A stretch of 64,000 bases of DNA from Syntrophomonas sp. (lineage in GTDB: Bacteria > Bacillota > Syntrophomonadia > Syntrophomonadales > Syntrophomonadaceae): positions 1 to 64,000 of the forward strand of contig JAENZN010000009.1 in assembly GCA_016841245.1 (NCBI GenBank). The letters are read 5' to 3'. The translations under genes were made by a program, and so were the position numbers. The notes beneath the pieces are model-generated. The model had not been told where the DNA came from. It worked only from the letters and a program-made list of their open reading frames with translations, and made no database searches. This document shows positions 3,835-19,607 of this stretch, in pieces; position 1 is the first letter of the stretch, and each line of letters opens with the position of its first letter.

Positions 3835-4377
3835 CTATTGAGGGTTCTTCATCCGTCTCTTTCTTTCCAGGAATGTTTCATGATTTCTGGTCATTTTGGG
3901 CGTTTTTGGCACTTCGGGATCTTCTGACGTTTCACTTGTCTCCAGGGCTTCGGACATTTCAAGCATTTCCGGTATCTCATCCAAATCAGGCATTGTAAGG
4001 GATTCGGTGGTTTCTATTGCTTCAGGAACAGGGATTTCGTATGTTTCTTGTTCTTCTGCTGTTTCGGCTATTTCCAGCGCTTCGAGTGTTGCTTGTTCCT
4101 CAAGTGTTTCCAAGGTTTCTGGGGCTGCGGATGTTTCACCTATCTCTATGCTTTCAGACATTTCGCGTTTTTCTGGCATTTCGATAATTTCAGGAATTTT
4201 GTTTCCTCTGGGCTCCTCTTTGGATTTTTCTGCTGTTTTTTGGTCCAGAATTGGATTGATAGATGATTTTACGGTAACATATGGTGTACTGCAAAATGAA
4301 CAGGACATACCATCTGATATGGGAGTAGCGGATTTGCTCCACTCTTTACAAGATTGACAATGCAACCAATAGGCCAC
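3835..4377 (-). CDS. Zinc-ribbon protein with long acidic low-complexity tail
   Basis: A 180-aa protein starting at GTG 4377 behind AAAGGAG. The first 30 residues form a zinc-ribbon-like knuckle with C7-x2-C10 and C26-x2-C29. Residues of about 50-160 are low complexity: Glu-rich, with Thr, Ala, Met and Pro in irregular repeats of the type ETxE/EALE/MPEK. The end is basic (LERKRRMKNPQ). The Glu-rich repeat would be strongly negative and disordered. I do not recognise a family. The repeat also keeps the opposite strand open (Ser/Val-rich), which I take as a by-product. It is read divergently from the lipoprotein gene at 4914. Confidence 0.6.
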   Translation of the reverse strand: MAYWLHCQSCKEWSKSATPISDGMSCSFCSTPYVTVKSSINPILDQKTAEKSKEEPRGNKIPEIIEMPEKREMSESIEIGETSAAPETLETLEEQATLEALEIAETAEEQETYEIPVPEAIETTESLTMPDLDEIPEMLEMSEALETSETSEDPEVPKTPKMTRNHETFLERKRRMKNPQ

Positions 4378-4913
4378 TGGTATTATCTCCTTTCTTATTA
4401 ATTTAACCGGTTAGAAATGGCTCTTTTTTGTTCATAGACCATCGATCTTTCTAACACTTTATGGTACTTCAATAATTAATGTTACAATGGACACTATTTC
4501 AAGATATGCAGGAATAGCAGGAAGCCCTGCTCTGGAGCGGTTGATCTCGAATATTCATGATCGATCCCAATAAATCCATAGGGGCTTCTTTTTTCCTGGT
4601 AAAAAACACAGCTATTATGATAATTGCTATATTCTTTTTTATTCGGTAATATATATGAGTTTATCGGTAAGGTAAGAACAATAAATATGCTTGTATATGA
4701 AAGGGGAGGTGAAATGAGATGACGACAATTGTAAATTTATAAATATGCCCGGTAAAGACACGCTCCTAAATTTAAAAGAGGTATCAAATATGGTCAATTT
4801 ATAGTAATAAATGGTAAAATGCATATGTTAAGTATCTATAGCTAACAATTATCCTTATACAAAAAAGAACCTGGCGATAATTCGCCCGGGCAGAAAATAA
4901 GAAGGTGTTTTTT
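4378..4913. other. Divergent intergenic region with terminator-like RNA signal
   Basis: The 536-nt region separates two divergent genes. TACAAT at 4483-4488 could be a -10 box for a short transcript. GAAGCCC (4521-4527) can pair with GGGCTTC (4582-4588), directly followed by six Ts (4589-4594), which is the shape of a terminator closing a small structured RNA or leader. It matches no riboswitch or SRP RNA I know. A ribosome site GGGGAGGTG near 4703 leads only into a few codons. Confidence 0.3.
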
Positions 4914-16635: not shown

Positions 16636-16658
16636 TTGTACTATTTGTAATAGTACAA
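16636..16658 (-). promoter_or_regulatory. Putative YtrA-type operator 1
   Basis: TTGTACTAT (16636-16644) and its exact complement ATAGTACAA (16650-16658) flank 5 nt, immediately upstream of the GntR start. The GTAC-containing half-site is like the one at 47427-47445, consistent with autoregulation by paralogous repressors. Confidence 0.65.
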
Positions 16659-16692: not shown

Positions 16693-16781
16693 TAGACAAG
16701 GGGCCGGTTCTTCCGTCTGGGAAATTTAACCATGCATACTTTTATCAAGCGGGAGAGACGGAAGAACCGGCCCCTTGTCTA
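16693..16781. repeat. Dispersed hairpin element E1 (GACGGTTCTT family)
   Basis: Two perfect 26-nt arms (16693-16718 and 16756-16781; core GGCCGGTTCTTCCGTCT) flank a 37-nt loop. The loop is recognisable, reversed, in E2 at 26473-26563 (shared CATGCAT-centred segment), so the two are copies of one element in opposite orientation. It lies between the GntR operon and the BlaI promoter. Confidence 0.8.
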
Positions 16782-16791
16782 AAAAAAACTG

Positions 16792-16840
16792 TTGACAAGG
16801 ATGGATTACATGTGTAAGCTTTAGGTATTACAATTGTAAT
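16792..16840 (+). promoter_or_regulatory. BlaI promoter with two operator dyads
   Basis: TTGACA (16792-16797) is a consensus -35 box. A weak -10 (TAAGCT, 16815-16820) follows at 17 bp. Two dyads of the BlaI/MecI type (TACA...TGTA) are present: TTACATGTGTAA (16806-16817), overlapping the -10 region, and the perfect palindrome ATTACAATTGTAAT (16827-16840), just downstream. Repression by the adjacent BlaI protein at both is inferred. Confidence 0.72.
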
Positions 16841-16859: not shown

Positions 16860-17231
16860 ATGCCAACAACACCCCAAATATCTGATGCAGAATGGCGGGT
16901 AATGAAGATTATCTGGGCTAATTCGCCCATAACTGCCAATGAAGTAATTGATAAACTGCAAGATAATACTAATTGGAAGCCCAAGACTATTAAGACTTTG
17001 ATTCGGCGCTTGGTAGATAAGAAGGCTTTAGGGTTTCACCAGGAAGGAAAATCCTACCTGTATTTTCCCATAGTTTTAGAAAGGGATTGTATCAAAGTAG
17101 AAAGTGAAATCTTCCTAAAAAAGGTATTCGACGGTTCTCTTAATCTAATGCTGGCCAACTTTATAGAAGAACAAAGGTTATCAGAAGAGGAAATAGAGGA
17201 ACTAAAAGGAATTATCGACGGGAGAAAGTAA
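16860..17231 (+). CDS. BlaI/MecI/CopY-family repressor
   Basis: A 123-aa winged-helix repressor. The family pattern is clear: ISDAEWRVMKIIW at the N-terminus, recognition helix region NWKPKTIKTLIRRLVDKKALG, and a C-terminal dimerisation helix containing EEIEELKGII. In the family the repressor is cleaved when the partner membrane receptor is activated. It is followed after 14 nt by that receptor. BlaI-type dyads lie in its own promoter. Confidence 0.92.
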   Translation: MPTTPQISDAEWRVMKIIWANSPITANEVIDKLQDNTNWKPKTIKTLIRRLVDKKALGFHQEGKSYLYFPIVLERDCIKVESEIFLKKVFDGSLNLMLANFIEEQRLSEEEIEELKGIIDGRK

Positions 17232-17245
17232 AGGAGCGGTTAATT

Positions 17246-18841
17246 GTGCAGGGATTTTACGCTATCTTGGACTGGATAGTAATATCTTCGCTAATGGGAA
17301 GCATCTTGATTTTATTAATTCTTTTAGCCAAATTGGTGTTCAATAATAAGGTGAGCGCTAATTGGCACTATTATATTTGGTTCCTGCTTCTCCTGAGATT
17401 GCTCGTTCCTTTTACTCCCGAAAGTCCGATAAGTATATATAACCTGCTTATTCATGGTACTGAACAGATGACTTTTTGCCATTACACTCCTGCCTTCTCG
17501 GAGCCGGACAGTCCATCCATGGAAGCTAGCAGATACGACGGTATTTCAACAGGTATTGGTGATAATCCAGAACAATTATACTCGGAGCAGGTGCAGCCGA
17601 ATGTTATTGATAGCCCGGGGCCAAACGATGGTAATAGTTTTAACTGGAAGGTGGTTTTGCTTCTGGTATGGCTGGCAGGAGCTGCACTGGCAGCGGGATA
17701 TGCCATATATGTCAACTTCCAACTCTGGTCTCAAATTCGCCATGAACCGAAATTAGATAATACGTCAATCATTCGAATAGTACAAAACTGTAAGTCAGTT
17801 ATGAATGTTTCTGCCAGTATCCCGATAGTGGTTACCAATAGAATTCATGCACCAGCCCTCTTCGGAATGATAAATCCAAAGCTGCTCCTGCCGGAGAGCA
17901 TAATCAAAAACCTCAGTGATGAACAAATAAGATACATATGTCTGCATGAATTGGCCCATTGGAAACGAAAAGATATTTGGCTTAACTGGATAACAGTAAT
18001 ATTACAGATACTGCACTGGTTCAATCCAGTGATCTGGTACGGCTTTTATAGAATGCATCAGGATTGTGAACTGGCTTGTGACTCACTGGTCCTGTCATCA
18101 ATAGAAGCAGAACAACGCAAAGAATATGGGCATACCATCATCCAGGTTTTGCAAATGAGGCTGATACCGCAATGGATTCCGGGAACAGCCGGAATGCTGA
18201 CTGGTAAAGCCCATATTGAAAGGAGAATTACCATGATTGCAAATTTCAAAAAACAAACTCTTTTATTTACTATTGCAAGTTTCATTGTCCTGGCTGCTAT
18301 TGGCCTGCTTGGATGTACCAGTGCCCAGAATATTGAGGAACCTTCATCAGGAGGTCAAAACGATACTCAGATATTAATACAATCAGATACTAATCAAATA
18401 CTGGCAGGAGCTGTTGACTTGCAAGGCCCAGGTATAATAGTAACCCTGGCAGATTCTGATGTTATTAACGAAAAAGGCCCAAATCACTCTATAATTCATG
18501 ATACAGATATCATTTTAATCCTAAACCATCTTAAAGATGCGGGAGCTGAAGCAATATCTGTTAATGATCAACGTTTGATATCAACCAGTTCCATAGACTG
18601 TGCGGGTACTAATATCCTAATCAATCATAATGTGTGTACCGGTCCTTTCATTATTAAGGCCATCGGTAATCCTGAAAAATTGGAAACTGACTTACTATCA
18701 GAAGGTGGTTATATGGAAATGTTGAGATTTCTTGGCATGAAAGCAGATATAGAAAGAAGTGAAAGCTTGTTAATTCCTAAATATGATGGAGAAATCAGCT
18801 TTGAATATGCCAAGCTGATTAGAGAACCAGAACAGCTATAA
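17246..18841 (+). CDS. MecR1/BlaR1-type M56 metalloprotease receptor with DUF881-like C-terminus
   Basis: 531-aa membrane receptor. Membrane segments lie near residues 10-30, 38-56, 138-158 and 338-357. The M56 protease has HELAH (His234, Glu235, His238) followed by a downstream WYGFYRMHQDCELACD zinc-ligand segment. After the last span, the extracellular part (about 380-525) is not the penicillin-binding domain of BlaR1. It reads as a DUF881 domain: GPGIIVTLADS, HDTDIILILNHLKDAGAEAI, VNDQRLISTSSI. DUF881 proteins (YlxW/YlxX type) are envelope proteins of the division gene cluster. I infer that a cell-wall signal is sensed by this domain and passed to BlaI by proteolysis. A deleted second copy of this gene lies at 22667-22950. 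Confidence 0.85.
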   Translation: MQGFYAILDWIVISSLMGSILILLILLAKLVFNNKVSANWHYYIWFLLLLRLLVPFTPESPISIYNLLIHGTEQMTFCHYTPAFSEPDSPSMEASRYDGISTGIGDNPEQLYSEQVQPNVIDSPGPNDGNSFNWKVVLLLVWLAGAALAAGYAIYVNFQLWSQIRHEPKLDNTSIIRIVQNCKSVMNVSASIPIVVTNRIHAPALFGMINPKLLLPESIIKNLSDEQIRYICLHELAHWKRKDIWLNWITVILQILHWFNPVIWYGFYRMHQDCELACDSLVLSSIEAEQRKEYGHTIIQVLQMRLIPQWIPGTAGMLTGKAHIERRITMIANFKKQTLLFTIASFIVLAAIGLLGCTSAQNIEEPSSGGQNDTQILIQSDTNQILAGAVDLQGPGIIVTLADSDVINEKGPNHSIIHDTDIILILNHLKDAGAEAISVNDQRLISTSSIDCAGTNILINHNVCTGPFIIKAIGNPEKLETDLLSEGGYMEMLRFLGMKADIERSESLLIPKYDGEISFEYAKLIREPEQL

Positions 18842-19064: not shown

Positions 19065-19607
19065 ATGTTGATTGAAAGTATTTCTGTAAACTTGGATGCA
19101 GTAGAGGCACTATTGTTTTTCTGGAATACCATAAAAGATAGAAAAAAGGTTACGGAGCTATTTATTTTCGATGTAATGGCTATGCAAGGACTGAAAGATG
19201 CTTATGACGATGAATTTAATGAGGAATCTGTACGTGGAGCGCTTAGTGCTATTACAAATAGAGAATCATACTCAAGCAAAAATAGAAAAGAAGGTCGCTT
19301 TTACAGCAATAATTTATGGATGTTAGAAGATCTCAACTATACAGATAGAATGGTTCAGCCAGTGAAAAAACTTAACCTTAATTATTTAGTTGATAAAATT
19401 AATGCCACTCAGAACAGTGGGCGTTTTAAAGACTTAGAGGTTATATTTTCGCCGCTCCATTATGAGGAATTTATCATTAAGAATAATAAGCTCATCATAA
19501 ACTTCTTTTCTGTACAGCCAAGTAATACAGATGAAGGAGTATATATCGGTGAAAAAGAATGGCTAAGTTTTATTGAAGAAAAGCTTATTGAGTTAATTAA
19601 TAAGTAA
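19065..19607 (+). CDS. Hypothetical protein, 180 aa
   Basis: A soluble mixed alpha/beta protein with ATG 19065 behind GGAGG at 19053-19057. No signal peptide, membrane span or recognised domain. Notable segments are LLFFWNTIKDRKKVTELF near the start and the C-terminal EKEWLSFIEEKLIELINK helix. The gene and its upstream region are more AT-rich than their neighbours (long TTATTATTG tracts at 18958-18990), which may mean recent acquisition. It is followed by a strong bidirectional terminator. Confidence 0.6.
   Translation: MLIESISVNLDAVEALLFFWNTIKDRKKVTELFIFDVMAMQGLKDAYDDEFNEESVRGALSAITNRESYSSKNRKEGRFYSNNLWMLEDLNYTDRMVQPVKKLNLNYLVDKINATQNSGRFKDLEVIFSPLHYEEFIIKNNKLIINFFSVQPSNTDEGVYIGEKEWLSFIEEKLIELINK

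Follow-up and report, generated by a model that had tools for sequence, protein, structure and literature searches.

What does a receptor of the BlaR1/MecR1 design read when its outer domain is no longer a penicillin-binding one? In staphylococci, the same receptor design serves penicillin detection. The question is raised by a Syntrophomonas sp. gene within the window, the whole 64,000-nt stretch analysed here (contig JAENZN010000009.1, positions 1 to 64,000), in which an M56 protease and a DUF881 domain share a single open reading frame (Table 1). The domain matches are far beyond chance. Peptidase_M56 (Pfam PF05569) covers residues 14-331 (E 7.2e-71, 239.2 bits against a gathering cut-off of 31), and DUF881 (PF05949) covers residues 381-523 (E 1.3e-42, 145.6 bits against a cut-off of 25), matching profile positions 3-146 of 146 and thus representing a complete domain. 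The receptor holds the motifs HELAH (residues 234-238), GPGIIVTLADS (394-404), HDTDIILILNHLKDAGAEAI (418-437) and NDQRLISTSSI (440-450). No transpeptidase domain was matched by Pfam at the C-terminus, direct reading of residues 358-531 found no SxxK, and the NCBIfam model blaR1_generic reached 210.4 bits, below its curated cut-off of 400, with a match to the N-terminal part that ends at residue 355. By the family's own definition, the protein is therefore not a beta-lactam receptor.

The original prediction had described this reading frame as an M56 receptor with HELAH at residues 234-238, paired with a BlaI repressor and promoter dyads, whose C-terminus is not penicillin-binding and resembles DUF881. 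Coordinates and motif were as claimed, the repressor and its tandem dyads, conserved in relatives, were recovered, and the DUF881 assignment was upheld by the profile, the predicted fold and the conserved residues. The receptor is thereby confirmed as a BlaR1-type M56 zinc metalloprotease in which DUF881 replaces the penicillin-binding sensor.

Table 1. Coordinates of the operon features in the window and of the corresponding operon in SKW158 (locus L046)
Feature	Position	Strand	Basis or remark
TTGACA, likely -35 of the blaI promoter	16792..16797	+	sequence reading
Operator-like dyad 1, TTACATGTGTAA	16806..16817	.	palindrome; conserved in five relatives
Operator-like dyad 2, TTACAATTGTAA	16828..16839	.	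palindrome; starts 22 bp after dyad 1
blaI/mecI-type repressor gene, 123 aa	16860..17231	+	Penicillinase_R 125 bits; MecI 1sd6 E 9e-26 over residues 4-120
Codons for BlaI Asn100-Phe101	17157..17162	+	aligned with S. aureus BlaI cleavage position Asn101-Phe102
M56-DUF881 receptor gene	17246..18841	+	GTG start, 531 aa
Peptidase_M56 region, residues 14-331	17285..18238	+	Pfam; BlaR1 8exs E 1e-10; Foldseek to 8exq/8exs/8exr
Outer loop TM2-TM3, residues 54-133	17405..17644	+	AlphaFold2 model, mostly low confidence/unstructured; counterpart of BlaR1 EL1
HELAH zinc motif, residues 234-238	17945..17959	+	sequence; invariant in relatives
DCELACD, residues 273-279, presumed third zinc-ligand Glu E275	18062..18082	+	aligned with BlaR1; E invariant in relatives
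TM4, residues 339-356	18260..18313	+	AlphaFold2 model
Lipobox-like LLGC closing TM4, residues 354-357	18305..18316	+	sequence reading
DUF881 sensor domain, residues 381-523	18386..18814	+	Pfam; model pLDDT 86; VIA Z 19.0 to 3gmg
blaI of SKW158	L046 4616-4993		first gene in operon
M56-coil-DUF881 gene of SKW158	L046 5001-6632		second gene
TM-coil-DUF881 partner of SKW158, 233 aa	L046:6680-7378		third gene, separate

In regard to the sensor, a phmmer search retrieved 3gmg (M. tuberculosis Rv1825; E 1.8e-8), the sole solved DUF881 structure found. An AlphaFold2 model of the domain alone (pLDDT 86) matched the same structure with a Foldseek E of 8e-13 and a VIA-align Z of 19.0 over 139 residues, the next-best chain having a Z of 6.8. 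Eleven residues are invariant across 38 aligned DUF881 domains, comprising sensors, division-type domains and others, and all 11 are present in the receptor. The full-length AlphaFold2 model (pLDDT 85.7), with membrane helices at approximately residues 2-35, 38-53, 134-165 and 339-356, resembles the cryo-EM entries of BlaR1 in the protease part and 3gmg in the C-terminus when compared with Foldseek. From the BlaR1 precedent, we infer a topology in which the protease faces the cytosol and DUF881 is extracellular. The loop between TM2 and TM3 is the counterpart of EL1, described for BlaR1 (PMC9834060), while the autocleavage loop aligns GMLTGKAHIERR with SHSFNGKKSLLKRR of BlaR1, a weak match of differing sequences.

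The blaI gene ends 14 bp upstream of the receptor gene. Its Asn-Phe pair falls at the position where S. aureus BlaI is cleaved, between Asn101 and Phe102 (PMC9834060), and relatives carry Asn-Phe, Ser-Phe or Asn-Met there in the alignment. Both dyads sit just downstream of TTGACA and upstream of blaI; a consensus scan of this promoter gave no strong -10. Tandem dyads also precede blaI in 5/5 other M56-DUF881 loci examined (L033, L034, L035, L036 and L046), where TTGACA (TGGACA in L033) lies 15-16 nt before the first dyad, and the start-to-start distance of the dyads is 24-26 bp in four relatives and 22 bp in L035, as in the window. The 3.9-Mb genome contains a single tandem TACANNTGTA...TACANNTGTA pair, that of the blaI promoter, and strict single dyads elsewhere are inside genes. 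A wider BlaI regulon was considered and rejected, since a search allowing one mismatch gave 12 sites versus 17 in the control and the strict dyads outside the operon are intragenic. As no remote sites exceed the control, the clearest predicted target of BlaI is its own operon, which in the window apparently consists of blaI and the receptor gene only. In C. thermocellum, the BlaI regulons are small and self-regulating, with paired operators near BlaR1-like genes (PMC8457756).

The surroundings of the operon hold further elements. A perfect 26-nt inverted repeat (arms 16693-16718 and 16756-16781, 37 nt apart) lies between a divergent GntR operon and blaI; it is degenerate in the sister genome (L035), and one related half-site is found elsewhere in the own genome. 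A palindrome, TTGTACTATT-N3-AATAGTACAA, at 16636-16658 precedes the divergent GntR/ABC-transporter operon and is likely the operator of that regulator. On the other side, a gene at 19065-19607, 223 bp downstream of the receptor, has no Pfam match, and in L035, the sister genome, the receptor is followed at a short distance by a lipoprotein gene of the same orientation (L035:4822-5604).

The M56-DUF881 architecture is rare, and was found in the own genome, in four other genomes of the family (G016, G035, G036 and G046) and in SKW158. Within the 54-genome family, long DUF881 frames occur in the first five of these, and all are fused proteins. Across 398 genomes of the phylum, only the own genome, G016 and G035 gave matches of a combined profile that spanned both domains, and across 391 genomes of the SKW158 class only SKW158 did. 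SKW158 itself was added by a pattern scan of an 84,980-species collection, which is not exhaustive because the pattern consists of two short peptides. DUF881 proteins as such are present in at least 297 of the 398 sampled phylum genomes, a count drawn from the best matches in which weaker fused copies could be missed; the combined profile covered the same sample. The search of other genomes, suggested along with the original prediction, thus yielded few carriers and an architecture not found to be widely described: none of the papers covered by a literature search links DUF881 with M56 or BlaR1. None of the outcomes named as refuting the original prediction was observed. Of the named relatives, Syntrophomonas sp. 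B5_bin.5 and S. wolfei subsp. methylbutyratica (L045) match best. The latter is an isolate with the same architecture, which shows that the fusion is not an assembly artefact and speaks against a chimeric bin. Relatives of the receptor are about 50% identical and retain the catalytic and DUF881 invariants. The DUF881 copies L037-L039 are truncated by the edges of their contigs, and L053, with an M56 part 58% identical, is cut near its contig end.

In one carrier, AS10tlH2TH_207 (L036:2934-5084, the same as L085), a single frame of 717 aa encodes M56-Amidase_3-DUF881 and has its own blaI and tandem dyads. In the M56 tree this protein sits among M56-Amidase_3 receptors, apart from the group of the window. 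A single M56 clade for all six DUF881 carriers was rejected by the AU test (p-AU 1.4e-42), and one clade of the five carriers without L036 was not rejected (p 0.17). Furthermore, the DUF881 domains of the sensors and of the SKW158 partner cluster apart from the division-cluster DUF881 of the family with support of 95/94, in a tree involving long branches. Together, the two trees and the AU test place sensor-type DUF881 on at least two M56 backbones, so that DUF881 was joined to M56 at least twice, once behind a peptidoglycan-amidase domain (Amidase_3). Among the C-termini of 70 sampled M56 relatives, Pfam recognised Amidase_3 (7), Transpeptidase (5), Peptidase_M23 (4), DUF881 (4), SpoIIP (1) and IseA (1). 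Sensor swapping on M56 receptors, with amidase, M23 or transpeptidase domains, is common, and the DUF881 sensor is an example. The description of this receptor as a new branch of the pathway was consequently too strong, because other wall-related C-termini are common on such receptors.

A link to division is suggested by the company that DUF881 keeps. We take YlxW and YlxX to be DUF881 proteins, as established for the family, and the B. subtilis control genome matches the DUF881 profile. Published work places YlxW and YlxX of C. difficile at midcell (PMC12548448). The stand-alone DUF881 gene of the own genome (G000:C37) lies among MurA-, DivIB-, sbp- and FtsA-like genes, as named by sequence reading. 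In another Syntrophomonadaceae genome, a DUF881-sbp block is duplicated within the division cluster (L040:2120-2911 and 4084-4803). SKW158 has two DUF881 gene pairs, one in the receptor operon, where the M56 protease carries one of the two members, and one tandem pair of TM-coil-DUF881 genes elsewhere in the genome (L163, L166). Its receptor locus appears to repeat the layout of a YlxW/YlxX pair in which a protease has been joined to one member, and such a paired layout suggests that DUF881 proteins may act in pairs.

We therefore consider it probable that the window encodes a one-protein receptor of the BlaR1/MecR1 design, whose DUF881 sensor reads the wall or division and which controls its own operon via BlaI. 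By the precedent of BlaR1, BlaI would occupy both dyads in the promoter of its gene, thereby repressing blaI and the receptor gene. Upon meeting its signal, the outer DUF881 domain would lead to activation of the M56 protease, which would cleave BlaI in the region of Asn100-Phe101 and so derepress the operon. Both the binding and the cleavage of BlaI are predicted steps, and so is the signal, for which the state of the wall or of division is the best guess; it could be perceived via septal proteins, possibly the own DUF881 protein of the cell, or via peptidoglycan, while beta-lactam acylation would not be the expected signal. A role as a wall or division reader that cleaves BlaI fits the evidence, and it is strengthened by the independent M56-DUF881 joins, the amidase domain, the partner gene in SKW158 and the midcell position of YlxW/YlxX (PMC12548448). 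As the only tandem operator is that of the operon, no separate output gene is seen. The rarity of the architecture also means that such a receptor does not serve as a checkpoint of division in general.

A narrower version of this proposal, which we hold to be doubtful, is a septum-monitoring pathway. On the outer side of the membrane, the sensor would pair with a DUF881 protein of the divisome, and once this contact is lost or altered, the M56 protease would be switched on and BlaI removed. If true, this would amount to a checkpoint of division at the level of gene expression, made from the signalling chain of methicillin resistance.

Alternatively, the receptor could be the output as well, although we regard this as unlikely. 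BlaI would then control only its operon, and stress would provide more membrane-held DUF881 to reinforce the division machinery, with lipoprotein signal peptidase possibly freeing the domain from TM4 through a cut at LLGC. The sole tandem operator of the genome precedes blaI, other dyad-like sites being few and not above control; the operon seems limited to two genes, that of SKW158 adds a plain DUF881 gene, and the C. thermocellum regulons are equally small and self-regulating (PMC8457756). Single operator sites may nevertheless be targets. Regarding the release, the Cys at the TM4 end is invariant in the Syntrophomonadaceae members but absent from the SKW158 protein, and Lsp cleavage of an internal helix is hypothetical. 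A lipobox-like motif was found near the TM4 end in 16/86 M56 proteins, versus 2/86 in the first 60 residues (TM1-2), which hints at signal-peptidase II processing of sensors, and the sensor of S. aureus BlaR1 is cut by signal peptidase I in a linker matching the TM4 site (PMC9834060). Judged from these motifs, lipoprotein signal peptidase may process TM4, and this would also speak against the wall- or division-reading receptor favoured here, since the sensor could then part from its protease.

It could also be that DUF881 senses a small molecule or peptidoglycan fragment unrelated to division, a reading we find improbable. The modelled domain has a ferredoxin-like fold, which could bind an extracellular ligand, its conserved residue types include G, D, E, N and R, and other M56 receptors have amidase and M23 domains where DUF881 stands here. 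The structural matches besides 3gmg include PII-like and ACT-type regulatory domains, but they are weak (Z 6-7, within the range of common folds) and were not accepted as relatives; no ligand site was identified in the domain. To our knowledge, DUF881 has no known function and no known bound ligand. A true BlaR1 resistance receptor with a misassigned sensor is hardly credible: M56, BlaI, operators and the N-terminal match to blaR1_generic would agree with it, and it is refuted by the Pfam, NCBIfam and 3gmg fold results given above. Equally far-fetched is a functionless chance fusion or assembly error, which the small number of carrier genomes might suggest, against which stand the several assemblies including an isolate (these rule out a chimera), invariants kept at about 50% identity, conserved operators and at least two joinings.

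A receptor with DUF881 as its outer domain would offer a reporter read-out for what DUF881 proteins bind. Our results suggest that the BlaR1-type chain may be reused by bacteria to keep watch on their own wall or division, and that it is perhaps a design for wall surveillance in general, with beta-lactam sensing as one instance.

In comparison with BlaR1/MecR1 (S. aureus BlaR1, 8exp-8ext), the receptor shares the membrane M56 zinc metalloprotease with HExxH and a downstream Glu, the BlaI/MecI partner, the operator dyads and a C-terminal extracellular sensor past the last helix. The sensor there is a penicillin-binding, transpeptidase-fold domain with SxxK, whereas here it is DUF881 without SxxK, and no beta-lactamase or PBP gene was seen adjoining the window receptor. 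The C. thermocellum BlaI systems likewise combine small self-regulating regulons, paired operators and BlaR1-like neighbours; their operator sequence differs, and the available part of the source notes no DUF881 sensor (PMC8457756). With YlxW/YlxX and Rv1825 (3gmg), the receptor has in common the fold (Z 19), the invariant residues and the position of the domain after a membrane helix. However, YlxW/YlxX have their own N-terminal TM and coiled coil, while here the TM is TM4 of the receptor and no long coil follows, the coil being absent in the Syntrophomonas receptors and present in that of SKW158. Moreover, they belong to division-cluster genes, whereas the window gene lies beside blaI, is joined to M56 and has its DUF881 on a separate branch. 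Finally, the M56-Amidase_3 receptors of Syntrophomonadaceae and relatives (L089, L100, L101, L104) also combine M56 with a wall-related C-terminal domain, but their sensor is an amidase domain. Its presumed catalytic Glu before Y(L/I)(S/T)N is Asp, Asn or Val in L089:4971-6674, L101:3-1352 and L104:4941-6674, so that the amidase may there be a binding sensor and not an enzyme, and it is retained in the amidase domains of L100 and of L036, the close relative of these receptors that carries DUF881 too.
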